Virus record (IMG/VR): IMGVR_UViG_3300044977_000044
Coordinates: 1 to 50,567 of that record
Origin: a virus
Strand: one strand, 5' to 3'
DNA: 50,567 nucleotides
Below the pieces are notes generated by a model. The model worked only from the letters and a program-made list of their open reading frames with translations. It was not told the origin of the DNA and made no database searches. Within the stretch, counting starts at the first letter, position 1, and each line of letters starts with the position of its first letter. A program made the translations under genes and the position numbers. Positions 1 to 50,532 of this stretch are shown piece by piece.

Positions 1-102
1 GCACCATGCGGCATGTGTCCGCAAGGACTGCGCTCAGCAGCACAACGCGCTGTGCGTATGTCCTTGATAACAGAAGAGTTACGTAAGTGCGTGCGTGGCT
101 AA
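1..102 (+). CDS. 3' fragment of the 50227-50532 gene, duplicated by the terminal repeat
   Basis: Reading frame 1 encodes the last 33 residues of the protein that is complete at 50227-50532, stopping at TAA 100-102. It has the same CxMC cysteine pair. It has no start of its own here, so it is simply the wrapped end of that gene and not a separate locus. The stop codon lies inside the left arm of the 85-283 palindrome. Confidence 0.85.
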   Translation, partial: APCGMCPQGLRSAAQRAVRMSLITEELRKCVRG

Positions 103-123
103 TTACGGAGCCTACCCACACGC
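1..123. repeat. Left copy of 123-bp terminal direct repeat
   Basis: Positions 1-123 are identical to 50431-50553. The match breaks at 124 (G here, A in the right copy). It carries the 3' end of the gene that starts at 50227 and the left arm of the palindrome at 85-283. It may be the overlap of a circular or circularly permuted genome, or a true short terminal redundancy. Confidence 0.95.
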
Positions 124-283
124 GTGCGGTCGGGAAAAGGAACGACAAAGGTGGTATCCTCATTTCTATATCATATATTTTTTTTACACTACTACCGTAC
201 TACTATTGTTTTGGTAATTAAATTTTGCCTTAACTTGACCGCGGATGTGTGGGTATGCTCAAGAATTAGCCACGCACGCACTT
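85..283. other. Very long imperfect palindrome (candidate structured RNA, origin or genome-end element)
   Basis: Bases i and 368-i pair over long stretches: 85-104 with 264-283 (20 of 20), 108-111 with 257-260, 113-121 with 247-255 (9 of 9), 126-131 with 237-242, and 137-140 with 228-231. Counted as plus-strand RNA, G-U pairs at 122/246, 125/243, 132/236 and 133/235 fill several gaps. The loop (141-227) is AT-rich and includes a run of nine T at 177-185. The left arm overlaps the end of the preceding gene and the terminal repeat. An early promoter follows at 318. Function is unknown. Confidence 0.85.
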
Positions 284-295
284 TGTGCTATTGTT

Positions 296-316
296 GATTC
301 TAATGCACTTATAGTC
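296..316. promoter_or_regulatory. 21-bp dyad, copy 1 (candidate operator)
   Basis: The sequence is GATTCTAA-N5-TTATAGTC. The arms are imperfectly inverted (6 of 8). Both arms recur unchanged at 5759-5779, while two of the five central bases differ (TGCAC here, AGCAG there). This copy ends one base before the -35 box at 318. Conserved arms, a variable centre and a promoter-adjacent place are what an operator would show. The ribbon-helix-helix protein at 5826 is the obvious candidate ligand, by inference only. Confidence 0.6.
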
Positions 317-317
317 C

Positions 318-346
318 TTGACAAATGCGCGTATCCTCAATACACT
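318..346 (+). promoter_or_regulatory. Sigma70-type early promoter
   Basis: The -35 box TTGACA (318-323) is perfect, the spacer is 17 bp, and the -10 box TACACT (341-346) matches TATAAT at 4 of 6. Transcription would begin near 353, just before the AGGAGG ribosome site at about 359-364 of the gene at 376. It sits directly beside dyad copy 1. Confidence 0.65.
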
Positions 347-375
347 GTACACAGTACAGGAGGATACGCAAGGCC

Positions 376-873
376 ATGGCCTTTCCAGCACCAGATATAC
401 CGGAACTTACATGCCGTTGTGGTCGGTGGAACAATAAGATACATTGTCCGGCTTGTGGCGGCTACGCTATACTTGGACTCGGCGTGAAACACAACATCGC
501 GGTGCAGTTACCGAACACCAACGACACGGTCGTTGTATGCTCGTTCAAATGCCGACGGTGTAACATTAAGTTTAATGACTTTGAATGGCGTTACAAATGC
601 GAAGCGCCACGGTACGAGTCTGCTACTATGCAGATTCGCCGTCTTAAGGACGAGGCGGCAGAAAAGGTCAAACTTGCAGGCGAGGATATGAAGCTTACGG
701 CTATGGCTAATGGTGCTACGATTGAACAAGCACGCCACGTTGCTATGGCTTATATGTTTTACCAACGTAACCCGGCAATGCTCAAGCCAGGTGACTTGGA
801 TGAACTTCGCCGTTTCTTGAAAATGAACATACCAAGACAGGCTGGCGAAGATGAACAGGAGGTTATTCGATGA
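376..873 (+). CDS. Zinc-ribbon-like early protein, unknown function
   Basis: A 165-residue protein. ATG 376 is chosen because AGGAGG lies about 11 bases upstream and the start follows a good promoter at 318; an in-frame ATG at 325 would lie within the promoter. The N-terminal third has CxC, CPxCG and a later CxxC pair (CRRC), the pattern of a zinc ribbon. The C-terminal two thirds is helical and charged (many Ala, Glu, Lys), with no catalytic motif I can name. It is the first gene of the early operon and overlaps the next start by ATGA, so the two are translationally coupled. DNA, RNA or protein binding through the ribbon is plausible. Confidence 0.75.
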   Translation: MAFPAPDIPELTCRCGRWNNKIHCPACGGYAILGLGVKHNIAVQLPNTNDTVVVCSFKCRRCNIKFNDFEWRYKCEAPRYESATMQIRRLKDEAAEKVKLAGEDMKLTAMANGATIEQARHVAMAYMFYQRNPAMLKPGDLDELRRFLKMNIPRQAGEDEQEVIR

Positions 874-983
874 CTTCGTTACCGAAGGTAAGCGCAAGCG
901 ATAAGCTGTGGCTCGCCGTTGCTGTCGCAACTATCGTTGTAATCTTCATTGCACTGTACTTCGCACCTCCATTGCCAAACTGA
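870..983 (+). CDS. 37-residue single-pass membrane protein
   Basis: A small open frame whose ATG overlaps the previous stop (ATGA) and which has AGGAGG at 857-862. After about 13 polar residues, a stretch rich in Leu, Ala, Val and Ile (about residues 14-33) forms one transmembrane helix, ending in a Pro-rich tail. The strong ribosome site, coupling and clear membrane segment argue that it is real. The function is unknown; early phage membrane miniproteins often act on the host envelope or on superinfection, but nothing in the sequence decides this. Confidence 0.65.
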   Translation: MTSLPKVSASDKLWLAVAVATIVVIFIALYFAPPLPN

Positions 984-1026
984 TGTTGTGGTTCAATTTA
1001 CAATCCTGAAAGGAAGGTACACCGCC

Positions 1027-1236
1027 ATGCCGCTACATGGAAACGGACTTACAGTCGTGGAACAGACGTATCGGATTATTAACCGTACTGAGGCGTTGCG
1101 CCGGCTCATTTTGCTTCGCAAACTGGCGTTTGAACACGAAGTACAAGACGCGCAGCGTATGGCGCAAGCTGTCGCTGATTTAGATCCCTTCGGGACGAAG
1201 CAAGAGCAGTTTCGTAATATTTTGGAAGTGATTTAA
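1027..1236 (+). CDS. Small helical early protein, unknown
   Basis: A 69-residue protein. ATG 1027 has AAGGAAGG about 10 bases upstream, and I prefer it to an in-frame ATG at 949 that would overlap the previous gene. The sequence predicts mostly amphipathic helix with alternating Arg/Leu and Glu/Gln. There are no cysteines, membrane segments or known motifs. It is the last gene before the 1345 terminator and so closes the first early transcription unit. Confidence 0.65.
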   Translation: MPLHGNGLTVVEQTYRIINRTEALRRLILLRKLAFEHEVQDAQRMAQAVADLDPFGTKQEQFRNILEVI

Positions 1237-1282
1237 CGCCTTGCGTTGCAGTCACTTACAGCTTGCGTTCACAAAGCGAAGC

Positions 1283-1311
1283 TTGACATCCTAATAAGGA
1301 TGCAATAGACT
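1283..1311 (+). promoter_or_regulatory. Promoter with internal dyads
   Basis: The -35 box TTGACA (1283-1288) is perfect, the spacer is 17 bp, and the -10 box TAGACT (1306-1311) matches at 4 of 6; the same -10 hexamer is used by the leftward promoter at 49250. The spacer carries a perfect inverted repeat CATCCT-AATA-AGGATG (1287-1302), and GACTC-GAA-GAGTC (1308-1320) covers the -10 and start site. Both could bind a regulator or be stems of a larger RNA. Confidence 0.55.
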
Positions 1312-1344
1312 CGAAGAGTCACATGCTACGCAAGTGATCCCGTA

Positions 1345-1374
1345 GCTCCGAGGGCAAAATCGGAGCGTCTTTTT
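1345..1374 (+). terminator. Rho-independent terminator / attenuator
   Basis: A perfect 7-bp stem GCTCCGA (1345-1351) / TCGGAGC (1360-1366) with an 8-base loop is followed by GTCTTTTT. It ends the 318-1236 unit. It also lies only about 30 bases after the presumed start of the 1283 promoter, so it may attenuate transcription toward the gene at 1520 or end a short RNA of about 55 bases. Confidence 0.8.
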
Positions 1375-1460
1375 AAGCCAGCTTTGCTTTCGGTTACTAT
1401 CGGCGCTTCTCAACGTCCGGTTAACCATTTGGACTAGGTTAGCGAAGCTGGCTTAGAAAG
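1369..1460 (+). other. 20-bp leader hairpin that takes in the terminator T-tract
   Basis: Bases 1369-1388 pair with 1441-1460 over 20 positions, 18 Watson-Crick and two G-U (1373/1456 and 1385/1444). The 5' arm includes the T-tract of the preceding terminator. The enclosed 52 bases hold a smaller stem, GTCC (1415-1418) with GGAC (1431-1434). Lying just ahead of the ribosome site of the gene at 1520, it looks like a structured 5' leader. Confidence 0.7.
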
Positions 1461-1519
1461 TTTCGCAGAAACTCAGAATGGTACACTCAACGTACCGGAA
1501 AGAAAGGAGTAACATTACC

Positions 1520-1993
1520 ATGTCGAAGACATACAACGAGACTCGGTATACGTTGAAGTATACCGAGACGAATGACAAACAGGAACAGGTCGATTCCTTT
1601 AAGGTCTTGACCGAAAAGCAAGCCAACGAAGAGCTAGAAGCGGCCAAGGCCGCAGGCACACCGGGGCCGGAAGTGGTAAAGATGCAAACCTTCGGTTATG
1701 TCGAGGCAGAATCACCGGCCGATTTTGAGACGCTGATCGCCAACGAAGTCGAGCGCGTAAACGTGTTCAACCGCGGCTACGTGCTGAAACAGCAAAGCAT
1801 TATCCGCGACTTCATGCTCGATAATGAGCAGCAAGCCACGGACGGAGTCTACGACCTGACGGCGGATGCGGCTGAGGTACGTGAACGACGCAAGGCTACG
1901 CCGGCTGAGAAGGCCATGAAGGCTCTGTCGGCGCTTAGCGCGGATGAAATTGCGAAGATTCTTTCGCAGTTCACTGCTGCGCAATCAGCGTAG
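1520..1993 (+). CDS. Soluble early protein, unknown
   Basis: A 157-residue acidic, Ala/Glu-rich protein. ATG 1520 has AAAGGAGT at 1503-1510, and the in-frame ATG at 1478 lies upstream of that site, so 1520 is chosen. The N-terminal part suggests a beta-rich segment, the centre has an acidic helical stretch (about 85-120), and the C-terminal 40 residues form an Ala/Leu helix. No known motif is visible. It stands alone between a structured leader and a strong terminator (2040-2072), so it is a one-gene transcription unit, which suggests high or separately regulated expression. Confidence 0.75.
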   Translation: MSKTYNETRYTLKYTETNDKQEQVDSFKVLTEKQANEELEAAKAAGTPGPEVVKMQTFGYVEAESPADFETLIANEVERVNVFNRGYVLKQQSIIRDFMLDNEQQATDGVYDLTADAAEVRERRKATPAEKAMKALSALSADEIAKILSQFTAAQSA

Positions 1994-2039
1994 CTGAAAG
2001 TTCGGGCGCTAGCCCGATTCCTCGACCAGAGAGAGGATA

Positions 2040-2072
2040 GAGTGCCACGGAGTATTAGTGGCACTCTTTTTT
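2040..2072 (+). terminator. Strong Rho-independent terminator
   Basis: A perfect 9-bp stem GAGTGCCAC (2040-2048) / GTGGCACTC (2058-2066) with a 9-base loop is followed by six T. It lies 47 bases after the stop at 1993 and isolates that gene from the next promoter at 2131. Confidence 0.92.
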
Positions 2073-2130
2073 GTTTTCCACAGTTTCGTTAAAGTATCGT
2101 AAACTGTTGAAAACAAAGAACATACAACGC

Positions 2131-2158
2131 TTGACAAGCACTTAGTAAGTATTATCAT
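2131..2158 (+). promoter_or_regulatory. Sigma70-type promoter for the 2177 operon
   Basis: The -35 box TTGACA (2131-2136) is perfect, the spacer is 16 bp, and the -10 box TATCAT (2153-2158) matches at 5 of 6. Initiation would fall near 2165, about 12 bases before ATG 2177. It follows directly after the terminator at 2040, so it starts a new unit that could run through the FtsK-like gene. Confidence 0.7.
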
Positions 2159-2176
2159 GGTACAATAAAAGGCCAT

Positions 2177-2848
2177 ATGCCACCACTTGGCGAAATATGT
2201 TGCGATTGTGGTGTTAGGACTACACATTACTTCACGACGTGGTGTTGGGGTGGTGGAAGCAATACGATACAAATACGTTGCCGTAATTGTTACAATGCCC
2301 AAAAAGCGGCGATGCACGCTAGTAATTATGGAGCTAATATGAGCGTAAAAATCCTCTGGGACGACTCCGTACAAGCGTACCGCGTGGCTACGCCTTACTC
2401 GCCAAACTTCGTCGAGTTGCTAAAGCAACAGATACCGATCGCACACAGAGTGTGGGACCCTCAAATGAAAATCTGGACCATTGCCGAGCAATTCGGCGAT
2501 CCGGTTAAGAAGCTCTGCGAAGCGGTGTTCGCGGCGCCGAATGTAACGTTCGTCAGCAAAGCTGAAGCTCAACGGATTGCGGCGCTGCGTGCTGCGCAAG
2601 CGCAACAGGCACAATCTAATCAATACTACGGTTATGTTCCGCCACGCCAACCGCAACCGCAACGCGGTGATCCTTTAGATTCCGTCATGCTTACATTCTG
2701 TAAAATGTTGCCATACGACGCTGCTAAAGCAGCGTACCGTAAAGCGGCTATGGAATTGCATCCGGACCGCAATGGCGGCAACGCCATTTCAATGCAGGTC
2801 CTGAATACTTCGTGGTCAAGGATTGAAAAGGAGTTTTACCAGAAATGA
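2177..2848 (+). CDS. J-domain protein with N-terminal zinc site (DnaJ-like)
   Basis: A 223-residue protein. The last 50 residues form a DnaJ-type J domain: a YRKAAMELHPDRNGG-type segment carries the HPD tripeptide that stimulates Hsp70 ATPase. Residues 8-40 have CxxCG and CRNC, a candidate zinc site. The middle (about 55-130) carries WDDSV...VWDPQMKIWTI, which resembles the small HARP-like fold of SMARCAL1-type proteins; that likeness is only my impression. ATG 2177 has a weak ribosome site, while ATG 2339 has GGAG at good spacing, so a shorter form lacking the zinc site is possible. Its likely role is to recruit host DnaK to a phage replication or assembly complex. Confidence 0.75.
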   Translation: MPPLGEICCDCGVRTTHYFTTWCWGGGSNTIQIRCRNCYNAQKAAMHASNYGANMSVKILWDDSVQAYRVATPYSPNFVELLKQQIPIAHRVWDPQMKIWTIAEQFGDPVKKLCEAVFAAPNVTFVSKAEAQRIAALRAAQAQQAQSNQYYGYVPPRQPQPQRGDPLDSVMLTFCKMLPYDAAKAAYRKAAMELHPDRNGGNAISMQVLNTSWSRIEKEFYQK

Positions 2849-3108
2849 AAGCCATCGGGATGCTCCCAATACTTATCGACCGATCGAAGATGCGGCGCAT
2901 TAAGATTACGTGTCGCTGCTCACGCCATTGGATCGAAGACGTACCGTCTGAGGTCCACGACTCGTGGCTCGTTATGGCGTTCTTCTGTCCTTCGTGCGGA
3001 AGTGAATACCACTTACAAAACAAGAAGCTCGAACGTGCGGAGCAACGCTCCAGCAAGATGCCACGCACAGAGTGGCCCGTTCCGGATGGGCCGGGAGGCA
3101 ATGCATAG
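2845..3108 (+). CDS. Small zinc-ribbon protein, unknown
   Basis: An 87-residue protein starting in ATGA overlap with the J-domain gene. It holds CRC (residues 23-25) and CPSCG (about 48-52), spaced as the two halves of a zinc ribbon, followed by a basic, Lys/Arg-rich helix and a Pro-rich tail. No enzyme motif is seen. A role as a nucleic-acid or protein adaptor is possible. Its last bases overlap the candidate ribosome site of the next gene. Confidence 0.7.
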   Translation: MKAIGMLPILIDRSKMRRIKITCRCSRHWIEDVPSEVHDSWLVMAFFCPSCGSEYHLQNKKLERAEQRSSKMPRTEWPVPDGPGGNA

Positions 3109-3109
3109 C

Positions 3110-3394
3110 ATGAGAAACTTAACATGGCTTACGCCGAAGGTACTACGTAGCATACTCAAAGATTTCGAGAATACGAAGTATGCGAACGACCCAGAACGCC
3201 GCGCGGTCGCTGGCCACGTTAAATTCTTGGTAATGCAAACGCCACAGCTCGGCGCACTTGCGTTCAGCACGTTGTCGCTAACGCCGGACCCAATCGAAGC
3301 AGCTCTAATTTTAATAAGTGCCGGAATACAGCTAGGTTTTGAACTAGCGGAAAAGGAACAGGAGTTATGCCAGACAAAGAACAAGATAAACTGA
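3110..3394 (+). CDS. Small early protein, unknown
   Basis: A 94-residue protein. The frame is open from 3002, but GGGAGG at 3093-3098 points to ATG 3110 (an ATG at 3101 is too close to it). The N-terminal half is helical and charged. A hydrophobic stretch at about 48-78 (alternating Leu/Ile/Ala with few charges) could be a membrane-dipping helix or a buried core. It overlaps the next gene by 28 bases. No known family is recognised. Confidence 0.6.
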   Translation: MRNLTWLTPKVLRSILKDFENTKYANDPERRAVAGHVKFLVMQTPQLGALAFSTLSLTPDPIEAALILISAGIQLGFELAEKEQELCQTKNKIN

Positions 3395-4242
3395 CGTTGC
3401 ATACGCCAGGCAGCTCTACGAGCTTGGCTAACAGGATTAAAATCGGCGGCAGCAAGCTGCACCAGCGCGTAGCGGCGGCTGCACCCTTGGACGTTGCGAA
3501 GCAAGCGGCGCTTTCGGTACCGTTACAAGTACCAAACGCCAAGAATCCATATGATGCCTCGTTAGAAATGCCGAACCGCATCGGTATGATGCTTGACGGT
3601 TCATTTTCGATGTGTTCTGCCGAAGGCGACGGTAAATCGAAGATTAACCATCTTAAAGAGGCTTGCCTCGATTTTATACGAAGTTGCGACTTTTCGACTA
3701 CGTCGATTGCCATCGAAACGTTCCCCACCTCTGGTGTTGAAGACGATGATGAAGGTGCGTGGGCGCCACAGAACAACGATCCGCTTGCGCATTTGTTACC
3801 GCCAGGTCAATCACCGCAACGAAGTCGCAAGTCTGCAAGACGCGGTCTCTGCAACATTGAGGCATTCCTGCAAGCCGACATCGACGCGTTGCAGGCGTGT
3901 GGCGGAACGCCAATGGCTGGCGCCATGCAGCGTAGCCTTACAACGAACTCGCTTACGCGAGGCATTCTTGTAAGTGACGGTGAAGCCGATTCGGCACAGC
4001 GCGCAATTGACATTGCAAAGCAATGGAAAGAGGCAGAAATCGCCATCGACTGCGTCCACATCGGGCGCTCTTCGAGTGGCGAAGCGTTGCTCAAGGAAAT
4101 AGCGGAGCTTACCGGCGGTTTGTACATCAAGTTCGATAACGTTAGTAACTTCTCGAAACATTTCAAGTACCTTGCTCCGGCGTTCCGAGCAATGCTAACC
4201 TCCGGTTCGGCTGGGATGCTTGGGGCGAAGGAGGTAAAATAA
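3367..4242 (+). CDS. von Willebrand factor A (vWA) domain protein
   Basis: A 291-residue protein. A vWA fold starts near residue 70, with the metal-ion-dependent adhesion site motif DGSFS (residues 77-81, DxSxS), a GGTPM loop that supplies the MIDAS threonine, and LVSDGEAD, a typical vWA strand-turn. The first 65 residues are low in structure. There is no signal peptide, so it is cytoplasmic. vWA proteins often pair with AAA+ or other ATPases as metal-dependent protein binders; here an FtsK-like ATPase lies one small gene away. AACAGGAG upstream of ATG 3367 supports the start. Confidence 0.8.
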   Translation: MPDKEQDKLTLHTPGSSTSLANRIKIGGSKLHQRVAAAAPLDVAKQAALSVPLQVPNAKNPYDASLEMPNRIGMMLDGSFSMCSAEGDGKSKINHLKEACLDFIRSCDFSTTSIAIETFPTSGVEDDDEGAWAPQNNDPLAHLLPPGQSPQRSRKSARRGLCNIEAFLQADIDALQACGGTPMAGAMQRSLTTNSLTRGILVSDGEADSAQRAIDIAKQWKEAEIAIDCVHIGRSSSGEALLKEIAELTGGLYIKFDNVSNFSKHFKYLAPAFRAMLTSGSAGMLGAKEVK

Positions 4243-4416
4243 ATGGAACACATCCAAGGAAGATTCGCCTTCCGTTACGATTTCGACTTCAAAGCGATGC
4301 GTTGTTTTGTGTATTGCACCGACTCAGACGGGCGTCGGTGGCTCGGCGAGTGTATCTTGCACGAACAAAAAGACGAGGAATTGAGCTTAGGACCGTTACC
4401 AAAGGCGAAGCCATGA
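4243..4416 (+). CDS. 57-residue protein between the vWA and FtsK-like genes
   Basis: The start ATG 4243 directly follows the vWA stop and has a strong GGAGGT site about 10 bases upstream. The stop overlaps the FtsK-like start as ATGA. The protein is rich in Phe, Arg and Asp in its first half and reads like a small beta-rich domain (alternating hydrophobics in RCFVYCTDS and WLGECILH) with an acidic tail. It has three cysteines with no CxxC pair. Its position suggests a partner or coupling factor for the two flanking proteins. It is not recognised. Confidence 0.7.
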   Translation: MEHIQGRFAFRYDFDFKAMRCFVYCTDSDGRRWLGECILHEQKDEELSLGPLPKAKP

Positions 4417-5585
4417 TCCCCAACACCGCCCAAAAAGCATCGCTAACGCCGGAGCAGCTCGACATTGTTAGTAAGCTCGTAAGCAAGTTTATCGAACTTG
4501 GCGTAGATGTTGAATTCACACCCCCGGTAATGGTCGGTCCCGTTATATCACTGTATAAGTTCCGACCGTCCGGTCGTACTCGCGTTAGCCATATCGAGAA
4601 CCTAGCCGCGGACTTTGCCGTTCTTCTCGGCCACGAACGCATCTTGATCCAACGTCGTACTGGCGATACTGCTGTAAGTGTAAGCGTTCCAAACGCGGAG
4701 CGCAGCGTGGTGGATTTCAAAGCCTCAATGGGCGTCGTGACTAAAGTCTTAGCCGCGTCCGCCGCTGCAAGCAAGCCAATCCGGCTGCCGCTCAATCTCG
4801 GCGTAGACGAACAGGGCGTGCCAGTAATCGAAGATTTACCGAACATGCCCCACCTGCTTATAGCAGGGCACACCGACAGCGGCAAGTCAACGTTGTTGCA
4901 TTCGATTCTCGGTACGATCGTATACACTATGAACAGTCGTGACGTTCAGCTTGTTCTATCGGACATGAAAGCTGGCATTGAATTCAACATTTATGAAGGT
5001 GCACCGCACCTTGCGTTCCCTGTGTCAAAGACACCGTTCCAAACTCTGGAACGTATGCAATGGATCATTGACATAATGGAAGATCGGCTTCGTATCATTG
5101 CTCACGCCAGTAAGCGCGACATCTTTGGCTACAACGAAGTTGCAAAGCACATTGGCGGTAACCACTTACCGTACATCATACTTGTCATCGACGAGGCAGC
5201 TTCGCTCTTTGGAAAAGGAGGCAAAGGCAATGGCAAAGGCTCATCGAAGATTGCCGACGAAATGCTCGGAACCATCTGTGCCAAAGCAAGAGCCGCCGGC
5301 GTGTACATCATCGTCGCAACGCAGCGACCGTCGGTCGATGTTATTGGCGGTAGCATCAAAGTTAATATCCCCGCTCGACTTTCGTTTAGATTGCCTACCG
5401 GCGTTGATAGTCGAACAGTCCTCGGAACAGAAGGGGCAGAAAATCTTCTATCCCGAGGTGATTGCCTGTTCGTTTCGCCAATGCGTCCAGCACCGATCAG
5501 ATTGCATTCTCCCTACGCTTCCATTGAAGATGTGCGGGCCGCAGTAGAATACGCCAAGGCGCGCGAAGCAGGAACTGCGTTATGA
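4413..5585 (+). CDS. FtsK/SpoIIIE-type ATPase (DNA translocase-like)
   Basis: A 390-residue protein. The FtsK family core is clear: Walker A AGHTDSGKST (about 149-158), a following conserved SDMKAGIEF-type segment, Walker B YIILVIDEAA, and the FtsK signature IVATQRPSVDVIGG...KVNIPARLSFR. The N-terminal 120 residues resemble the alpha/beta module of FtsK-type motors. No membrane segments and no obvious gamma (DNA-sequence-reading) domain are seen. Such ATPases move dsDNA. Phages normally package with terminase, so this early copy probably acts on replicating or host DNA, or comes from a plasmid-type transfer module. Position-coupled (ATGA) to genes on both sides. Confidence 0.85.
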   Translation: MIPNTAQKASLTPEQLDIVSKLVSKFIELGVDVEFTPPVMVGPVISLYKFRPSGRTRVSHIENLAADFAVLLGHERILIQRRTGDTAVSVSVPNAERSVVDFKASMGVVTKVLAASAAASKPIRLPLNLGVDEQGVPVIEDLPNMPHLLIAGHTDSGKSTLLHSILGTIVYTMNSRDVQLVLSDMKAGIEFNIYEGAPHLAFPVSKTPFQTLERMQWIIDIMEDRLRIIAHASKRDIFGYNEVAKHIGGNHLPYIILVIDEAASLFGKGGKGNGKGSSKIADEMLGTICAKARAAGVYIIVATQRPSVDVIGGSIKVNIPARLSFRLPTGVDSRTVLGTEGAENLLSRGDCLFVSPMRPAPIRLHSPYASIEDVRAAVEYAKAREAGTAL

Positions 5586-5794
5586 GAATCACCTACGGTA
5601 AACTTGACGAAGATGACTGGCTTTGCCACTTAAACCATATTCTTAACGGAGTGGAGACATCCACAAAGTGGTGTGGCGTATGCCACTGGTACAGCAAGTG
5701 CGACCCGCTGGCGCGGAACAGGCTCCTGTGCAAATCTCTTCGAGATGCGTATGTTGTTGATTCTAAAGCAGTTATAGTCGAAAAAATGTCTTGA
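5582..5794 (+). CDS. Small Cys-rich protein downstream of the FtsK-like gene
   Basis: A 70-residue protein coupled by ATGA to the ATPase gene. CGVC followed by single Cys residues about 8 and 17 positions after the pair looks like a compact zinc knuckle. The C-terminal codons contain dyad copy 2 and the upstream edge of the promoter at 5791. The peptide it encodes there (VDSKAVIV) resembles that of an open frame over dyad copy 1, so either the DNA site or a former duplicated gene end is conserved. The function is unknown. Confidence 0.65.
   Translation: MRITYGKLDEDDWLCHLNHILNGVETSTKWCGVCHWYSKCDPLARNRLLCKSLRDAYVVDSKAVIVEKMS
5759..5779. promoter_or_regulatory. 21-bp dyad, copy 2 (candidate operator)
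   Basis: The arms GATTCTAA and TTATAGTC are identical to those at 296-316, with centre AGCAG. Here the gap to the -35 box is 11 bases, against 1 at copy 1: a 10-bp shift, about one helical turn. That places a bound protein on the same DNA face relative to both promoters. It lies inside the end of the 5582 gene. Confidence 0.6.
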
Positions 5795-5819
5795 CACTAA
5801 GTACGCAATAAGCTATGCT
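5791..5819 (+). promoter_or_regulatory. Promoter giving a probably leaderless transcript
   Basis: The -35 box TTGACA (5791-5796) is perfect, the spacer is 17 bp, and the -10 box TATGCT (5814-5819) matches at 4 of 6. The expected start site falls at about 5826, the A of the ATG of the RHH gene, and there is no ribosome site between. Confidence 0.65.
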
Positions 5820-5825
5820 GGCAAC

Positions 5826-5999
5826 ATGGCACCGTCACTGACTCATCAGGTAACCAGCTTCAGCATCAAGCGCGATTTGTACGAACGCCTCAAGAAACGC
5901 TTGCCAAGGTACGGAGACCGTAGCAAAGCTATTGCACTTTTAGTGGAAAAGTTCATTAACGGCGAAGTAAGGCTTGAAATTCCGCCTCGCCGTCTGTAA
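5826..5999 (+). CDS. Ribbon-helix-helix (CopG/Arc-like) regulator
   Basis: A 57-residue protein. Residues 9-15 form a short beta-strand (VTSFSIK), followed by a first helix (DLYERLKKRLPR), a turn at YGDRS and a second helix (KAIALLVEKFI): the ribbon-helix-helix layout of CopG/Arc repressors, where the strand contacts the major groove. It lies right after its own promoter, which has dyad copy 2 upstream. Autoregulation through that dyad, and control of the 318 promoter through copy 1, is my inference. The mRNA is probably leaderless. Confidence 0.75.
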   Translation: MAPSLTHQVTSFSIKRDLYERLKKRLPRYGDRSKAIALLVEKFINGEVRLEIPPRRL

Positions 6000-6028
6000 C
6001 ACGGCAATTTTAACCGAAGGTGATCCTG

Positions 6029-6640
6029 ATGGCAGATTCAACAATACCAGCTCCAGCGGAGCTGGACGTTACGCCAGAGCCGTTAATTTGTGCTGACCTG
6101 GCACCAGAACACTTCCACGAACGTCAACATTGTATACAATGTCACCGTATTTACTGTCCCCACTTCCAGTCTGAAATTGACTCCAACTTCTGTCGAGTCT
6201 GCCTAACGGCAGCGTCCGCTTCGGTAACTGAAAGTCCCCTTCCACCTGACTCTGAAGGAATCCACCACGAAGGCAAGTACATCATGCCTACCGGCTCGGT
6301 TTACAAGACTTTACCTCGCGCGATCGCGGACATGGCCGATAACGAGCTTGAAGAATACCTCAAGCTCATGAAAAACGAAGTTAAGAACGCCGAAACTACG
6401 TTGCAGTACCGGCGCATTGCGGTAAGCATCGGCGAAGTCGAGTCGGATCATCGGAAAGTCTTGGAAAGCCGAAGGCTTCGTGGACTAAAGTTACCGAAGC
6501 AGGAAGGCGTTATTAAGATTGGCAGTGATGCTGGCAAGCCTAGCAAGAGCTTGGCAGGCGTAGCCGTCCAGCTCAAGACGCTCGGTATTACGAAAGAAAT
6601 GCTAGAAGCATTACTAAAAGCGAAAGGACCGAAACCATGA
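6029..6640 (+). CDS. Cys/His-rich N-terminal domain protein, unknown
   Basis: A 203-residue protein. ATG 6029 is preferred over GTG 6020, which lies inside the GAAGGTG ribosome site. Residues 22-60 hold C, H, H, CxxCH, CPH and CxxC, a two-metal cross-brace-like pattern (reminiscent of B-box or similar zinc modules). The rest is a long charged helix (about 105-150) and a Lys-rich C-terminal segment. No catalytic motif is visible. It is translationally coupled (ATGA) to the membrane protein at 6637. A protein-protein adaptor role is plausible. Confidence 0.7.
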   Translation: MADSTIPAPAELDVTPEPLICADLAPEHFHERQHCIQCHRIYCPHFQSEIDSNFCRVCLTAASASVTESPLPPDSEGIHHEGKYIMPTGSVYKTLPRAIADMADNELEEYLKLMKNEVKNAETTLQYRRIAVSIGEVESDHRKVLESRRLRGLKLPKQEGVIKIGSDAGKPSKSLAGVAVQLKTLGITKEMLEALLKAKGPKP

Positions 6641-6891
6641 ACATAGTTGCCAAACTTGGCCAGAACATCCAATTCGTTGCGTTTTGGGCACATTTCGGCG
6701 TAGCCGCCTTGGCGGTGGGGCACTTGCCACATCCGTGGCTTGCGTTCGTAATTATTGCGTTAGCGGCGGGTGTAAAAGAATTTTGGTTCGATGCCAAGTA
6801 TGAAAGCAATCCGCCGCAAACGTTCATGGACGGCTTAGAAGATTGGATTGGATGGGCCGCTGGTGCGTTTGTTGGTATTTATTTACGGTAA
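6637..6891 (+). CDS. Small membrane protein (phage inner-membrane type)
   Basis: An 84-residue protein with two strong hydrophobic segments (about 12-28 and 33-45) and a third weaker one at the C-terminus (WIGWAAGAFVGIYL). A conserved-looking loop KEFWFDAKYE...QTFMDGLEDW links them; I recall similar loops in many phage-encoded membrane proteins of unknown role. It is coupled by ATGA to the preceding gene. A holin-like function cannot be excluded, but its place among early genes argues against lysis. Confidence 0.7.
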   Translation: MNIVAKLGQNIQFVAFWAHFGVAALAVGHLPHPWLAFVIIALAAGVKEFWFDAKYESNPPQTFMDGLEDWIGWAAGAFVGIYLR

Positions 6892-6952
6892 GGAGTAGCG
6901 TTGAACACGGTGGAATCGAAGGCATCTTCGAGGAAACCACAAGGAGAATCCA

Positions 6953-7330
6953 ATGAAAAACTCAGAGCTCGCAAAGCAGGCATACGACGAACTCGAGCAA
7001 GTCATGAGAGAGGCTTTTGAGAAGTGCCACGCGGTCCTGATTGGATCGCACTACGACTTCGACAAGTACGAACTGACCAGCGACGGTGTCGAGATCACAG
7101 GCTACGACTACCGCTGCGGCGGTGACTACGAATCGTTCACCATTCCCTATGCCGATCTCGACGACATCGACGCCTTCGTGGTCAGGCGGCAGGCTGAGAT
7201 CGAGGAAGCAAAGCGCAAAGCGGTAGAGAAGCAAGCTGCCGAAGAAGCGCGGAAGAAGGCGACGGCAGCCGAAGCTGAGCACCAGCAGTACCTCAAACTG
7301 AAAGCAAAATACGAAGGAGCAGCACAATGA
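6953..7330 (+). CDS. Coiled-coil early protein, unknown
   Basis: A 125-residue protein with AAGGAGA just upstream of ATG 6953. The N-terminal part (1-80) is a mixed alpha/beta acidic domain with Asp/Tyr-rich strands. Residues 80-120 form a long Ala/Glu/Lys helix, likely a coiled coil. It overlaps the next start by ATGA. It is not recognised; the shape suggests a small adaptor or inhibitor that dimerises through its C-terminus. Confidence 0.7.
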   Translation: MKNSELAKQAYDELEQVMREAFEKCHAVLIGSHYDFDKYELTSDGVEITGYDYRCGGDYESFTIPYADLDDIDAFVVRRQAEIEEAKRKAVEKQAAEEARKKATAAEAEHQQYLKLKAKYEGAAQ

Positions 7331-7449
7331 AAACGAAAGACCTGATCACAGAACTGCAAGAAGCCGATCTGAGTAGACATTTGGCGGCTCCCGGCTCTCC
7401 CTCAACTCAAACGGCTCAGAAGAACGAGCAGAAAGGAACGCACGAGTGA
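7327..7449 (+). CDS. 40-residue coupled small protein
   Basis: The ATG overlaps the previous stop (ATGA), with AAGGAG about 8 bases upstream, and its TGA overlaps the GTG start of the next gene (GTGA). The first 18 residues form an amphipathic helix; the remainder is polar and probably disordered. The tight coupling on both sides is the main evidence that it is translated; it may chiefly serve to bring ribosomes to the 7446 gene. Confidence 0.5.
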   Translation: MKTKDLITELQEADLSRHLAAPGSPSTQTAQKNEQKGTHE

Positions 7450-7928
7450 GAACTGACGCGTATCTGTCAGATGATCGTAAGTATCGGTACTGGCTACTTC
7501 GCGTATGGGACGATTCGCTGCCGATTGATTGCAAATGTGGTGTCAATCCGTCTAAGGCAGATGAGAAAGAGAACGATCCAACAATCCGAAAGGATATCGG
7601 CTTCTCAGAGAGACAAGGATTCGGGGGCTTGCTAAAGGTCAACCTATCCGCGTTTCGTAGCACCGACCCAAAGGGTGCGCGGTATCAGCCAATTGGTGAG
7701 TTCAACACACCTTCACACATTCGGCAATACTATGACACGTTCAACGCAAAACAGATGACGTTCTGTTGGGGAAGAAACGGAAGTCATTTCTTTACTCAGG
7801 CTTCTAACCTGCGAGCCGAATTTCCTAAGGCGATGTGTTTCGGTAAAAATCCAGATGGCACGCCGCGTCACACGCTAATGCTGCCGTATACAACAGAATT
7901 AGAACTGTACGAGCCGATACCGTATTGA
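7446..7928 (+). CDS. DUF1643 family protein
   Basis: A 160-residue protein starting at GTG 7446, coupled by GTGA, with AAAGGAACG upstream. It shows the family hallmarks: GVNPSKAD near residue 32, DPTIRKDIGF, GFGGLLKVNLSAFRSTDPK, and the later AKQMTFCWGRNG with a final short strand region. DUF1643 proteins are common in phages and bacteria and have no settled function as far as I know. The length is close to the usual 150-180 residues, so it appears intact. Confidence 0.85.
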   Translation: MRTDAYLSDDRKYRYWLLRVWDDSLPIDCKCGVNPSKADEKENDPTIRKDIGFSERQGFGGLLKVNLSAFRSTDPKGARYQPIGEFNTPSHIRQYYDTFNAKQMTFCWGRNGSHFFTQASNLRAEFPKAMCFGKNPDGTPRHTLMLPYTTELELYEPIPY

Positions 7929-7972
7929 CACGTGGCGGCTCTCCCTCAGTAGAAGAGAAAGGAACGGAGTAA

Positions 7973-8119
7973 ATGATGCCTTCCGAAATGACGCCTTGCG
8001 AAATAGGGAGCGCTGGGATGCTGGTCATGTTCCTCGCGTGCTGCTACTTAGTTGATCGCATACGCGACTTGCAGAAAGAAATTGAGCGACTAGCAGAGAC
8101 AAGAAAGGAACCGCAATGA
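7973..8119 (+). CDS. 48-residue single-pass membrane protein
   Basis: ATG 7973 (or 7976) follows a GGAACGGAGT ribosome site. Residues 11-28 are hydrophobic (GSAGMLVMFLACCYLV), predicting one membrane helix, followed by a charged helix RIRDLQKEIERLAETRK that could form a coiled coil in the cytoplasm. The stop overlaps the next start (ATGA). This resembles small phage membrane anchors or an i-spanin-like layout, but the function is unknown. Confidence 0.6.
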   Translation: MMPSEMTPCEIGSAGMLVMFLACCYLVDRIRDLQKEIERLAETRKEPQ

Positions 8120-8295
8120 GCGACCAGGAAACGACCGAAATGACTACCGCAAAGCCGGAACAGGCTCGACAAGCCGTTAAACTCCGCTCTCAGTATGAAT
8201 CGGATCGTGCAGCCTTAGCCCAGTTCTACCGCGACTTGATCGCATCCGCAACCGACGACGAGAAACTCCACAACTTGTATCAGGAGCATGGGTAG
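8116..8295 (+). CDS. 59-residue helical protein, unknown
   Basis: Coupled by ATGA to the membrane peptide, with AAAGGAA upstream. After a polar N-terminus, residues 13-58 predict one or two helices rich in Gln, Ala and Asp. There are no cysteines or motifs. It could pair with its membrane-anchored neighbour. Confidence 0.55.
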   Translation: MSDQETTEMTTAKPEQARQAVKLRSQYESDRAALAQFYRDLIASATDDEKLHNLYQEHG

Positions 8296-8382
8296 GGACC
8301 CGTAAAGAACTCACCGCAAGCGTTGCTTCGTAGAATAAAAAGCGTTTGAACTTTTAAGGGGCTATGGGGCAGGAAAGGGTGA

Positions 8383-8679
8383 ATGATGACGACTAAACTC
8401 GGACGGAGTCGAGAAGGTCACGATAAAGAGGCCGCGTCGGACGATCCGCCAACCTGCAACAAGTGTGGCGATGAATTTACGGTGCCAGACGGCTACGAAG
8501 TCACTGATTACTGCAATCCATGCGCTCAGGAATTGGTGCCGGAACTACTCACAGTCTTAGAAGCGATTGTGACTTCCGCCAACAACGGCAACGAGCCGGG
8601 GCGGACATGGATTATGGTCGCAGGCGGATTGATTGATTCTGCCGAGGCCGCAATCAAAAAGGCGAAGGCTAACTTATGA
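8383..8679 (+). CDS. Small zinc-binding protein ahead of the nuclease gene
   Basis: A 98-residue protein with AGGAAAGGG a few bases before ATG 8383 (ATG 8386 is also possible). Residues 25-48 hold CNKCG and CNPC, a classical four-cysteine zinc ribbon, followed by two helices with a small hydrophobic centre. It overlaps the nuclease start as ATGA, and that nuclease also begins with a CPNCG ribbon, so the two may work together on DNA. The gap before it (8296-8382) shows only AT-rich spacer. Confidence 0.7.
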   Translation: MMTTKLGRSREGHDKEAASDDPPTCNKCGDEFTVPDGYEVTDYCNPCAQELVPELLTVLEAIVTSANNGNEPGRTWIMVAGGLIDSAEAAIKKAKANL

Positions 8680-9908
8680 GCGAAAAACCAGTGGACCATA
8701 ACGCTAAGCAAGATACAGCGTCGCAGAAATGCCCCAATTGCGGAAGCGAAACTGGTAAACGTGGATGGATAACGATCCCGCCGCGATCAGTCGGCTCTAT
8801 AGCAATGTTCGGACGTGATGAACTATGTACGCATCGCTGGCATGACGAGCCTGCCGATTCCCTCGCTGCCATGTGCGACCGAGCAAGCCGAGAAACGCCG
8901 CTACCGTACTTTGTAAAACAAAACGGCGACGGTCGTTTACACTTCAGTGTCGATTCTTCGATGCTAACTTCATTCTCGAAGTGTCCCACACTTTTCCGTT
9001 ACCAATACGTCCAGTTACAACGCCGTAAGGGAATGCCCGGAGCCATGAGCATCGGCGGATGGTGGTCCAAAGTCCTGGAGCTGTTTTACACGAACATGCA
9101 GTCTCGACAAAAGAGCAACGCCGGTTACGTAACGCGTAGCGAAATGATGGCCTTTGCCGCAAGCGCGTGGCAGTCTTGTAACATGGAAGCCATGAAGTTA
9201 CAAAACGCGAAAGCGTATGACGCCTTTGGCGGCCCGCTCGGCGCCGCGGCAATGGCCAGTGAATATTACGACCGCATCGGCGGCATTGACAACACCAATC
9301 TAAAGATTATATCTAGCGAAGCTGGCTTCGGACTTCGCGGTGAAATGGTCCTCTTCGAGGACAATGAAATTGTCATTCATTACATCGGTAAACCAGACCT
9401 TACGGTCTATGATAGTGCATCAAAAGTGCTTGCACCGTTAGATCACAAAACTGTAGACCGTATCAAATCCGATATCCAACGCAAGTACAAACCGCACGGT
9501 CAAACCTGCGGTTATATTTGGGCTATCGGCAAGTTAGCTAAAAGCCTCGGCTTTGACATCCCCGTGGACCGCTGCATCATAAACATCGCAGCGCGACTAC
9601 CACCGGCGGAGAAACCGAAGGACGGCAAGCCGAAACCGCGCTTCACGCGCGTGTATCCAACGTATTCGCCAGATGAAATCGAAGAGTGGCGACTTTCAGT
9701 TCTGTCGAAGGTAAGAGCAATCCGTAACGCAATCTTGACAGACTCATGGTACATGAGCGACAGCTCCTGCCACTTGTACGGAGGTTGCGACTTCCGCCTC
9801 GTCGATAGTGTAGCTCCAGCGAACCGAGACATAGTCCTACGAAGTGACTACGTTACGGTGGAACCGTGGGTGCCTTACGAAGTTGAAGATGAACAAACCG
9901 GAGAATAA
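8676..9908 (+). CDS. PD-(D/E)XK nuclease (RecB/Cas4-like exonuclease)
   Basis: A 410-residue protein. An N-terminal ribbon CPNCG (about 19-23) precedes the nuclease domain. The SMLTSFSKCPTLFRYQYV segment (about 90-107) is the helix-1 signature of the PDDEXK_1 superfamily. Later, GKPDLTVYD supplies the active-site Asp, LDHKT the (D/E)XK pair, and GQTCGYIWAI the conserved motif IV Gln/Tyr helix. Such phage enzymes resect DNA ends for recombination; the next two genes (Sak4-like ATPase, ssDNA-binding-like protein) fit that job. An extra Cys group near the C-terminus (CHLYGGC) might ligate a metal or an iron-sulfur cluster, as in Cas4-type nucleases. Confidence 0.82.
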   Translation: MSEKPVDHNAKQDTASQKCPNCGSETGKRGWITIPPRSVGSIAMFGRDELCTHRWHDEPADSLAAMCDRASRETPLPYFVKQNGDGRLHFSVDSSMLTSFSKCPTLFRYQYVQLQRRKGMPGAMSIGGWWSKVLELFYTNMQSRQKSNAGYVTRSEMMAFAASAWQSCNMEAMKLQNAKAYDAFGGPLGAAAMASEYYDRIGGIDNTNLKIISSEAGFGLRGEMVLFEDNEIVIHYIGKPDLTVYDSASKVLAPLDHKTVDRIKSDIQRKYKPHGQTCGYIWAIGKLAKSLGFDIPVDRCIINIAARLPPAEKPKDGKPKPRFTRVYPTYSPDEIEEWRLSVLSKVRAIRNAILTDSWYMSDSSCHLYGGCDFRLVDSVAPANRDIVLRSDYVTVEPWVPYEVEDEQTGE

Positions 9909-9910
9909 AA

Positions 9911-10708
9911 ATGCCAACAGACGTTACAAGTATGGAAAAGGCTACCGCCTTTGAGAAGCTGACGCTCCTTGAAGTTGGGCCAGAGAAAGGCGGCAAGTCT
10001 CGCCTTGCGGCCACGGGGCGTAAACCCGTACTGTTCCTTGACTATGACCGACGCGCCGCGGCAGTAAGCGGAATACCTGGCGTATTCGCCATCACGAAAC
10101 CGTTAATCGACCCGGCTTGGCCGAACCAACCTACTGCGTATCAGCAAACGCTTAACATCCTTGGCGAGTTGGAACAGCACAAGATTGATCTCGGTGATGC
10201 CTCTGGTCCCAAGTTGCCAAAGACTCTCGTCTTTGACTCCGTCGCAAGCTTCGCTAAGTGCGCTGGCGCATATGCGTGGTTCACCACACCGGACATCCGT
10301 CGAACAATCTCCGTTGGCGGTCAACAGTTCCACCTCCCGAAGGGCTTTGACGGCTGGAACGCCGAGATGTCTCTTGTAGAGTCGGCCATCTTGCGAGCGT
10401 TAGCGATACCAGACCTGGACGTCATTTGTACGCTGCATGAACAGCCCGAAGAGGCTCCAGAATCCACGAACGAAAAGCCCAGTTTCACTGGCAAGTTCGC
10501 CATTTACCCCACCCGGTACAAACTCCTGCTCAAATGGTTTAACGAAGTTTGGAGGGTAACAAGAGAAGACGCAAATGGCCCGAAGATTCAAGTCGTGCCG
10601 AATTGGCAATTTACTTCCGCTGCTACAAACCTTGGTATAACGTTAGTTGACAAACCGGACATTTCTTATTTAATAGACAAGGCTTTATCCAACGGTCACA
10701 AGCCGTAA
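9911..10708 (+). CDS. Sak4-like RecA-fold ATPase (single-strand annealing)
   Basis: A 265-residue protein. Walker A is GPEKGGKSR (near residue 23), Walker B is TLVFDSV, and a C-terminal strand VICTLHEQPEE fits the AAA_24 / phage nucleotide-binding family that includes Sak4 annealases. The serine after the lysine satisfies the P-loop. These proteins bind ssDNA and promote annealing or short strand exchange together with a phage SSB. It lies 3 bases after the nuclease and 28 bases before the SSB-like gene, forming a recombination trio. The length is normal for the family. Confidence 0.8.
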   Translation: MPTDVTSMEKATAFEKLTLLEVGPEKGGKSRLAATGRKPVLFLDYDRRAAAVSGIPGVFAITKPLIDPAWPNQPTAYQQTLNILGELEQHKIDLGDASGPKLPKTLVFDSVASFAKCAGAYAWFTTPDIRRTISVGGQQFHLPKGFDGWNAEMSLVESAILRALAIPDLDVICTLHEQPEEAPESTNEKPSFTGKFAIYPTRYKLLLKWFNEVWRVTREDANGPKIQVVPNWQFTSAATNLGITLVDKPDISYLIDKALSNGHKP

Positions 10709-10736
10709 CTTAACTAAACCAGAAAAGGACAAAACA

Positions 10737-11195
10737 ATGCCAAAAATCAAAGGTTCCAAAGAGTCGCTTGAAGGCAAAGCGGCATTGCCGGGCGGAATTT
10801 TCACGTTCCGTCTTGACGGTTTCGATCCAAAGCTGTCCAAGGACACAAAGTCGGTAAACCTTCAACCTAAGATGAAGGTTATCAATCACCAACAGCACAA
10901 CGATTCGAGAATCTTCGAGAACCTGAACTCTCAGGCGACTTGGGTCATGCGTGATTTTTGCCACTCTCTTGGCGTTCTGATGGATGGACCAGATCAGACG
11001 GATATGCCAGGTGAGTTCCAAGGGCCAGAAGCCGATCCGAGCCAATGGAAGTACGTCGGCCCACTTGTGGGCCAGACTGGCCAAGTCGAACTGACGACAG
11101 TTCCGAATCTGAAAGGTGGAACACGAACCGTACCGAAGCGTTACCTTTGCAGGATTCTGGGCTGCGTCGTAAAACATTCTGAGTCCCTCGTCTAA
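10737..11195 (+). CDS. ssDNA-binding-like protein (DUF669-type)
   Basis: A 152-residue protein. LPGGIFTFRLDGFDPKLSKDTKSVNLQPKM-type strands followed by NSQATWVMRDFCHSLGV resemble phage DUF669-type proteins, which are proposed single-stranded DNA-binding proteins and commonly sit beside Sak4-like ATPases. No zinc site or enzyme motif is seen. AGAAAAGGA upstream of ATG 10737 supports the start. The tail has a basic segment (RTVPKRYLCR). Assignment rests on context as much as on sequence. Confidence 0.6.
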   Translation: MPKIKGSKESLEGKAALPGGIFTFRLDGFDPKLSKDTKSVNLQPKMKVINHQQHNDSRIFENLNSQATWVMRDFCHSLGVLMDGPDQTDMPGEFQGPEADPSQWKYVGPLVGQTGQVELTTVPNLKGGTRTVPKRYLCRILGCVVKHSESLV

Positions 11196-11412: not shown

Positions 11413-11628
11413 ATGGCTGACAAAGAACTAACATCGAATGCCTACTGCATCGGATGCAGCGCACGCATTCCAGTCTACGAACTTATGTGTAGTTCCTGCA
11501 AACGTAAGTTTCCAGTCCTTGCCTCAAGAGCGAAGCTCTGCTCGGAGTGCGGCAGGCCATATTTTGTACCGCCTACGGCGGAGCAAGTTGAACAGGAAAG
11601 GCTTGAAAAATGCCAGAAACAATCCTGA
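11413..11628 (+). CDS. Double zinc-ribbon small protein
   Basis: A 71-residue protein. ATG 11413 has GAGGAG at good spacing; a TTG at 11401 lies within that site. Three cysteine pairs (CIGC, CSSC, CSECG) cover residues 12-48, enough for one to two zinc ribbons of the zinc-ribbon/rubredoxin-like type. The tail is acidic. It overlaps the methyltransferase gene by 19 bases. Likely a nucleic-acid or protein adaptor; not recognised as a family. Confidence 0.7.
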   Translation: MADKELTSNAYCIGCSARIPVYELMCSSCKRKFPVLASRAKLCSECGRPYFVPPTAEQVEQERLEKCQKQS

Positions 11629-12902
11629 CCGATACAATCCTAACCGATGGGCGTATCCGCGCCGATATGGGGGACATTGACGGTCTTTGTAATTCCATTC
11701 GAGAGTTTGGTTTGATTCAACCAATTGTTATTATACTACTTTCAAGGGCACTAACACCGACGTTAGTCGTTGGCGGCCGCCGGCTTGCAGCTTTGAAACG
11801 CCTCGGTATTAAGAAGCTACAACACGGTATCCATTTTATTTACCGAGGCGAAGAAAGTGACTATCAAAGAAAAGCTGTCGAATTGGAGGAGAATCTCCGA
11901 CGTAAGGAACTTAGCTGGCAAGAACAAGTTACCGCTAAACAAGAACTTCTCCGACTTATGCAGAGCATCCATGGAGTTGCAGAAGTTGGCGGAAGAACTC
12001 GGCAAGAACTTGCGGAAGGAAGCTCAAACGGATTTGGCGTCCGCAAGCTGGCGGCACTCCTTGGCGAAAACCCAACACAGACTAGCAAAGACTTGCGTAT
12101 TGCTGGCGCGATTAAATCCCTACCTCAACTTGCCAAGGCAGACACCAAGGAAGGAGCCTTCCGGCAATTATCCATACTAGGCGCGTTAGCGAGTATGGTC
12201 GTGAACAGGGCGCCGGTTGGGACGACGGTGCCGCAATGGACATTGTATGAAGGAGACTTTAATGCGAATGCAAAACAACTTGGGGACCAAACCGTTGATC
12301 TGGTTTATTCAGATTTGCCGTTTGGCGTATCGCTCTCTCAAATGTCGAAACACGCTGGCGGCGTCGTGGATTACAATGACTCGTGGGATGACATCGTTAA
12401 CTCCCTGGATGCCGTTGGGGTCACCGCCTACAGAGTTCTACGCCCAGATAGATTTGGAATCTTCTGGTTCGGATTCAAGTATTACGAATTACTACGAACT
12501 GCACTTGAGCGAGCGGGATTTACAGTCAATCCTGTTCCTGTTGTCTGGTGGAAGCACACTCGTTCGACAGAGAACCCGAACACCCGCTACGCTAACGGAT
12601 ACGACGCCGCGCTAGTTGCCATGAAAGGCTCCCCGGTCTTTATCCGTCCCGGCTCCGCCAACGTTGTCGATCTACCTTCGGTAGCATCAACCGACAGGCT
12701 GCAAATTGCGCAGCAGCCGGTGGCACTTGTAAAAAAGTTCATTGAAGATACCACTGCCGAAGGCGCTACTGTCGTAGACTTCACCGCAGGTAGCGGCACC
12801 ACAGGCGTTGCGGCGTTGGAGCTGAAACGTAAAGTAATTCTCTTTGAGAAGGAGCCTGCCGCATGTACGTTGATAAAAGCGAGGCTGGGAGCCATCAAAT
12901 AA
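11610..12902 (+). CDS. ParB-like / DNA methyltransferase fusion
   Basis: A 430-residue protein. Residues 1-180 look like a ParB/Srx-type domain: GRIRADMGDIDGLCNSIREFGLIQPIVI, VVGGRRLAALKRLG, and ELEENLRRKELSWQEQ are the classic ParBc boxes. Residues 200-430 form an amino-methyltransferase: SDLPFG is motif IV (catalytic), and VDFTAGSGTTG is motif I (AdoMet binding) placed after it, the order of the beta class (N6-adenine or N4-cytosine). DLPF instead of the usual DPPY/NPPY is a modest deviation. The product would methylate phage DNA, either for restriction protection or for regulation. AGGAAAGG precedes ATG 11610. Confidence 0.85.
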   Translation: MPETILTDTILTDGRIRADMGDIDGLCNSIREFGLIQPIVIILLSRALTPTLVVGGRRLAALKRLGIKKLQHGIHFIYRGEESDYQRKAVELEENLRRKELSWQEQVTAKQELLRLMQSIHGVAEVGGRTRQELAEGSSNGFGVRKLAALLGENPTQTSKDLRIAGAIKSLPQLAKADTKEGAFRQLSILGALASMVVNRAPVGTTVPQWTLYEGDFNANAKQLGDQTVDLVYSDLPFGVSLSQMSKHAGGVVDYNDSWDDIVNSLDAVGVTAYRVLRPDRFGIFWFGFKYYELLRTALERAGFTVNPVPVVWWKHTRSTENPNTRYANGYDAALVAMKGSPVFIRPGSANVVDLPSVASTDRLQIAQQPVALVKKFIEDTTAEGATVVDFTAGSGTTGVAALELKRKVILFEKEPAACTLIKARLGAIK

Positions 12903-50226: not shown

Positions 50227-50532
50227 ATGAATACACGAACCAAGCGTGCGCTTGCGCGCTTGGGCTTTACGCGCGTCGCAGGCGAATCAATGGAATTGCC
50301 TAATTCGCCCGCGAATCGGTTTCCGATTGTTCGAGAACCGTCGCAAACGGAGTTGGAAACCACAACGTCGAAGACGTACGTACCGTGGTACTGGTGGAAG
50401 ATACATTGCGCACATGGTAAGTTATGGACGGCACCATGCGGCATGTGTCCGCAAGGACTGCGCTCAGCAGCACAACGCGCTGTGCGTATGTCCTTGATAA
50501 CAGAAGAGTTACGTAAGTGCGTGCGTGGCTAA
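50227..50532 (+). CDS. Small Cys-containing protein spanning the terminal repeat
   Basis: A 101-residue basic protein with GAGGT about 9 bases before ATG 50227. It includes a TRVAGESMELPNSPANRFPI segment and WWKIHCAHGKLWTAPCGMCPQG, where four Cys/His residues (CAH...CGMC) could bind zinc. Its last 33 residues lie in the repeated end and recur at 1-102. It ends within the palindrome left arm. Function unknown; position suggests it is the first gene transcribed across the genome junction. Confidence 0.7.
   Translation: MNTRTKRALARLGFTRVAGESMELPNSPANRFPIVREPSQTELETTTSKTYVPWYWWKIHCAHGKLWTAPCGMCPQGLRSAAQRAVRMSLITEELRKCVRG

Follow-up and report, generated by a model that had tools for sequence, protein, structure and literature searches.

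A 25-bp dyad element in helical phase with TTGACA boxes at early promoters of uncultured phages, present with and without a neighbouring gene for a probable ribbon-helix-helix protein

Which protein reads a short sequence that recurs at two early promoters of a virus? The sequence, GATTCTAA-N5-TTATAGTC, lies at 296-316 and 5759-5779 of IMGVR_UViG_3300044977_000044, a virus record whose 50,567 bases were analysed over their full length and are referred to here as the window. Both copies match with zero mismatches, and each is followed by a perfect TTGACA box, after 1 base in the first (box at 318) and after 11 bases in the second (box at 5791), with 17-bp spacers to TACACT and TATGCT, respectively. 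A first-pass annotation had located these copies and their gaps correctly, had placed a gene for a ribbon-helix-helix (RHH) protein at the second promoter, and had proposed a small two-promoter circuit run by that protein. The identification of the gene is probably right, as judged from the helix pattern of its 57-aa product and from weak family and profile matches. The two-promoter circuit is not supported: the site is part of a 25-bp element that occurs in phase at all four TTGACA promoters of the window's early region (318, 1283, 2131 and 5791, weakly at 318 and 1283), in most relatives lacking the RHH gene, and in a second phage family.

The two copies belong to a longer identity, TTGTTGATTCTAAnGCAnTTATAGTC, at 291-316 and 5754-5779. 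This 26-nt repeat has the same base at 24 of 26 positions and is the top-ranked direct repeat in the first 6 kb of the window; we estimate the chance of such a pair at about 1e-3. The window holds no third copy of GATTCTAA-N5-TTATAGTC, even with 3 mismatches permitted. At this loose setting two matches also turned up in 2 of 100 shuffles, but neither real copy contains a mismatch. The dyad described at first is a real site, but its arms as then drawn are only 6/8 complementary. Alignment with relatives places the true symmetry axis about 6 bp farther left, on GATTCTA, in a 25-bp site. Pooling 104 distinct sites in related viral contigs, which are partly redundant, often fragments and not independent observations, gave the consensus YAAGYNNTTGAAAACAAAGNANTTA, with GAAAACA (21) and GATTCTA (18) as the commonest centres. 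The strongly conserved bases extend beyond A/T tracts (TAAG, TTG, AAAG, TTA), and the two bases of the right-arm TA have conservation values of 0.96 and 0.88.

A position weight matrix (PWM) was trained on 11 elements from RHH promoters, with the -35 columns excluded, and scanned leave-one-out. Additional sites were found in most genomes, with 25 hits scoring at least 16 in nine family contigs and 0 in Markov surrogates. With regard to the window, only two copies had been reported before; there are further copies at 2098-2127, 55-84 and 50485-50514, and a weak reversed one at 1231-1260. The elements, promoters and genes concerned are the following.

57..81, + strand: element copy without TTGACA, in the left-end copy of a 123-bp repeat (match 55-84, score 20.6)
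287..311, + strand: 25-bp element copy 1, whose score is low (10.2) because its left arm is degenerate (centre 299, centre-to-TTGACA distance 19 bp)
318..346, + strand: promoter P1 (TTGACA 318-323, TACACT 341-346)
376..873, + strand: first early gene, zinc-ribbon-like protein (AGGAGG ahead of the ATG at 376)
1231..1260, - strand: weak reversed element (score 11.9, centre 1246, 37 bp from TTGACA 1283)
1283..1311, + strand: promoter P2 (TTGACA 1283-1288, TAGACT 1306-1311)
2100..2124, + strand: 25-bp element with GAAAACA centre, within the 30-mer CGTAAACTGTTGAAAACAAAGAACATACAA at 2098-2127 (score 30.4), adjoining TTGACA 2131, outside the PWM training set and absent from the first-pass annotation
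2131..2158, + strand: promoter P3 (TTGACA 2131-2136, TATCAT 2153-2158), ahead of the DnaJ-like gene 2177-2848
5750..5774, + strand: 25-bp element at the RHH promoter (centre 5762), 29 bp from TTGACA, one turn beyond the common 19
5791..5819, + strand: promoter P4 (TTGACA 5791-5796, TATGCT 5814-5819)
5826..5999, + strand: gene for the 57-aa probable RHH protein
50487..50511, + strand: identical element copy without TTGACA, in the right-end repeat (match 50485-50514, score 20.6)

A terminase search of IMG/VR gave relatives at 52-61% identity; scans of IMG/VR with FtsK and DNA polymerase found no relatives. The cultured-phage collection holds no near relative of the window, and no near-identical phage DNA was found for positions 1-8000. 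Looked for in related phages, as the first-pass annotation had suggested, the site lies near TTGACA boxes, with up to four promoter-linked sites per relative. These sites stand ahead of the orthologous zinc-ribbon first gene (behind the same promoter type as in the window), of the 1520-type and 2177-type genes and of the RHH gene, and others precede small genes that lie near the terminase and run the opposite way. The nearest relative (G001) exhibits TTTGATTCTAAAAGAGATATAGAGCTTGACA ahead of the gene whose product is homologous to the 57-aa protein, at 40% identity, and TTATTGATTCTATTGGACTTAAATAACTTGACA at the early promoter ahead of its zinc-ribbon gene; both sites lie as close to their boxes as the first site of the window does. 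In IMG/VR, the pattern TTGATTCTANNNNANNTANA-N(4-14)-TTGACA matched 27 stretches, 15 of which have a total length of 30 or 31 among the eleven lengths permitted. The same collection contained no match to GATTCTAANGCANTTATAGTC.

Could the repeat merely reflect similar coding sequence? Copy 2 overlaps the end of the open reading frame (ORF) 5582-5794, and both copies would read VDS[NK]A[LV]IV in one frame. Copy 1, however, is not part of any credible gene, the wobble positions are conserved, and the relatives' sites stand upstream of the start codons of non-homologous genes, so that coding similarity, which the first-pass annotation had named as the outcome that would undo its proposal, was rejected. 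Chance and a DNA or RNA hairpin fare no better: the surrogate count was 0 and the arms do not covary. Arms match each other as well between sites as within a site (4.96 and 4.98 of 9), which indicates a fixed recognition consensus and not a hairpin. We consider coding similarity, chance and a hairpin, taken together, extremely improbable.

The distance of the element from the -35 box is constrained to one face of the helix. For 103 unique family sites, offsets from the anchor to TTGAC(A/T) fall at 24-27 (n=47), 32-36 (n=7) and 40-44 (n=9), with zero sites at 28-31, 37-39 and 45-50 and a background of 0.18 per offset. When offsets were simulated as uniform over 28-49, the spacings beyond the main peak proved to be in phase with it at p 1.5e-4 for the family and p 9e-4 for sites from pattern scans made without TTGACA. 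Reversed sites cluster likewise, at 17-20, 25-29 and 36-37 from the centre, and 76 of 98 sites have TTGAC(A/T) 8-69 bp away on either side. The one-turn shift seen between the window's two sites is thus a general property, since offsets about one helical turn apart recur across the relatives. If TTGACA is set at -35 to -30, the usual element centre lies near -54, and the next near -64 and -73.

Such face-dependent spacing is that of a class I-type activator site. In class I sites of the CRP type, a dyad lies upstream of the -35 box at positions one helical turn apart, as here; the element differs in its centres (about -54/-64/-73 versus -61.5/-71.5), in its sequence and in the perfect TTGACA that is kept. 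Whole-turn steps would be expected if a bound protein must touch RNA polymerase, and to that extent the spacing favours activation, although a repressor that holds polymerase is also compatible with such steps. At promoters of phage phi29, protein p4 is a factor that contacts RNA polymerase from upstream; the resemblance lies in this arrangement, the consensus of the p4 sites being unlike that of the element.

The position of the element raises the possibility that the C-terminal domains of the host RNA polymerase alpha subunit (alpha-CTDs) bind it directly, with no separate factor. The element spans about -66 to -42 and overlaps, next to TTGACA, the region of the UP element of sigma-70 promoters (-60 to -40, PMC2613000), and its A-rich centre and fixed helix face would suit such a role. 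Instead of an A/T-tract consensus fixed at -60 to -38, however, it exhibits fixed G positions, conserved bases outside the A/T tracts and dyad symmetry, and it is displaced by whole turns, up to two turns farther upstream. It was also not found at host promoters in the bacterial and archaeal scan that was made. We regard direct binding by alpha-CTDs as improbable. Nor does the element as a whole agree with the site of the protein IHF. The IHF site reads YAANNNNTTGATW on this strand and would need no symmetric right arm; the left half of the GATTCTA version fits it, but GAAAACA, the commonest centre, does not, and neither does the conserved right arm with its TA (0.96/0.88).

With regard to the 57-aa protein, RHH proteins have an N-terminal strand followed by two helices within about 45 residues. 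A model from the single sequence was poor; the one used, an AlphaFold2 model built with 13 homologues (predicted local distance difference test score 84.7), exhibits helices at 16-25 and 29-44. The structure prediction suggested in the first-pass annotation thus recovered the two helices, but not the strand, as the preceding segment is assigned none in the monomer, and a Foldseek search with the model gave no significant match. The sole structural lead is ParD2 (Z 2.7, root-mean-square deviation 2.9, 38 aligned). At the sequence level, the family match to RHH_3 is weak (E 0.11), an Arc-like PHROG is matched by 3 of 13 members (best 0.047), and hhalign against CopG/NikR/Arc/omega gave a probability of 49.5 and an E of 1.7e-4 for one comparison.

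The element and this gene are often found together. BLAST found an RHH homologue in 16 of 45 related or motif-bearing records, and a profile found one more (G013); all 18 RHH-bearing records, the window included, carry a phased site at a TTGAC box. Upstream of most of the homologous genes, one element architecture adjoins the -35 box, with centres such as GATTCTA and GAAAACA (the box is degenerate in two of them, G025 and G044), and in most such records the start codon lies about 30 nt past the box. In the window and most RHH-bearing relatives, the putative regulator gene stands directly behind a copy of the element. This arrangement could mean that the element is the operator of the 57-aa protein, which would control its own promoter and either repress or activate the remaining early ones, in the manner of Arc, the RHH protein of phage P22, or of SvtR of the virus SIRV1. 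SvtR, one of the viral RHH repressors, is likewise small; besides repressing the promoter of its own gene it binds further viral sites, and its operator is an imperfect inverted repeat (review, PMC5569661).

The difference from SvtR and Arc is that here the site is 25 bp long, is helically phased to the -35 box and also occurs without the RHH gene. Autoregulation would lead one to expect the operator to be absent where the regulator is absent, but 13 of 15 relatives without the gene retain a phased TTGAC site; several of these records exceed 40 kb and several are fragments. In one (G031), the FtsK match ends at 5127 and that of the next conserved gene begins at 5160; the RHH gene is absent between the two, and the element is retained. 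Nor is there a clear tie between the sequence of the RHH strand and the element centre, the window itself using both GATTCTA and GAAAACA.

A second phage family bears the element at TTGAC boxes at ten loci (L172, L185, L200, L206, L212, L238, L253, L288, L306 and L319), and these loci share a terminase-like protein of 902 aa that is distinct from the terminase of the first family. Its records G019, G257, G258, G259, G263, G265, G266, G268, G269 and G271, several of which are fragments, yielded no RHH homologue. Since the site is kept in relatives without the gene and in this second family, the RHH protein cannot be the only reader of the element and is not a necessary one; the site can be accounted for without it. 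We consider a circuit run by the RHH protein unlikely, though less so than direct binding by alpha-CTDs. In L212, the ORF of the 902-aa protein (8182-10887) matches phage terminases in separate N- and C-terminal parts, as if interrupted by an intein.

Another regulator, encoded by the phages and common to them, might bind the site instead. The viral collection yielded the promoter-linked form, whereas bacterial genomes and cultured phages hardly did so, as such a regulator would predict. However, ORF clustering, which is weak because the loci are partial, revealed no protein common to both families other than a PD-(D/E)XK nuclease in a few loci: it is common to L185, L306 and the window's family, and the remaining loci have no detected shared protein. 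A phage-encoded regulator of this kind is, in our estimation, a slim possibility.

The reading we favour, and to which we give an even chance, is that the element marks an early-promoter regulon and is read by an activator that contacts RNA polymerase and is probably supplied by the host. The element would form the early regulon of the phage family, widely shared upstream of promoters, with its centre some 54 bp ahead of the transcription start, or farther out by one or two turns, on one helix face relative to the -35 box and in either orientation. A dimeric DNA-binding protein on the element would contact host RNA polymerase, through the alpha-CTD or sigma region 4, and this contact would boost early-promoter transcription immediately upon entry of the DNA. 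We infer that a protein binds, that it activates and does not repress, and that it is most likely of host origin, since the element persists in RHH-less phages and in an unrelated family. The RHH gene would be one gene of the regulon and may feed back on it.

Several observations weigh against a host-supplied activator. If a host protein reads the element, host promoters should carry it too, but the GATTCTA version before TTGACA occurs only 7 times in 257 Gb of bacterial and archaeal genomes (TTGATTCTANNNNANNTANA pattern, lengths 30-31), near the estimated chance level. In 199 genomes of one bacterial phylum, the element is not in excess over the control, and none was found in E. coli genomes. 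In the other phages, which pattern matching alone brought in, 59 of 73 strong copies have no TTGAC near; as most lie away from the box, the element seems to have some use besides these promoters. The secondary offset clusters are small (7 and 9), the related contigs are not independent, and the PWM training sites came from RHH promoters, although among the secondary offsets just the window's own, 34, derives from a training site.

On a wider view, which we put forward tentatively and hold to be somewhat doubtful, the 25-bp dyad phased to TTGACA may be a virus-specific module by which unrelated families of uncultured phages enlist one conserved host transcription factor for immediate-early transcription, the RHH gene being a later addition that tunes one lineage. 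The element gives early promoters a recognisable sequence signature across a large group of uncultured phages, its natural variation points to action on one helix face, and it sets the site apart from a regulator guessed by proximity. If a host factor does bind it, the element would lead to that factor and assist in host assignment.

In the literature searched, the element sequences are not mentioned. Searches of cultured phages with the element plus TTGACA gave only partial, chance-like matches; the element core is present in KL1, VCLv11, A1432 and WTB, with no TTGACA adjoining. The sequence CTAAGTC(C/G)TTGATTCTAAAG recurs in cultured phages of Burkholderia, Variovorax and Stenotrophomonas that otherwise differ from one another (L422 5211, L425 6736, L427 19999, L428 19999, L429 394), and TTGACA is absent from its usual position there. 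The copies of KL1, WTB and A1432 lie beyond the 3' end of a primase gene. Plasmid matches such as the R388-type oriT inverted repeat CGTAAGTCGTTGAAAATCAACGACTTACG also resemble the element; since one paper attributes the inverted repeat IR4 to TrwA and IR3 to IHF (PMC4814116), we draw no link from them. A palindrome similar to the element, AAGTCGTTGAAAATCAACGACTT, stands beside mobilization genes in the R388-type oriT region and a Bordetella plasmid (L420 2501-2529, L421 3001-3029).

Other features of these genomes were observed. One locus (L162) has elements at 3083 and 3154, in opposite orientation and 71 bp apart, upstream of an early gene, with an in-phase TTGACA at one of the two only. 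The 123-bp repeat of the window is direct and exact (1-123 and 50431-50553, the latter followed by the last 14 bases of the window); each copy contains one element, and the sequences outside the repeats differ. A 56-nt inverted repeat, 79% complementary (85-140 / 228-283), lies directly upstream of the first early promoter, and the right-end sequence that holds its left arm is itself nearly palindromic. Finally, the start of ORF 11610-12902 is matched by ParB-like nuclease families and the remainder by DNA methyltransferases.

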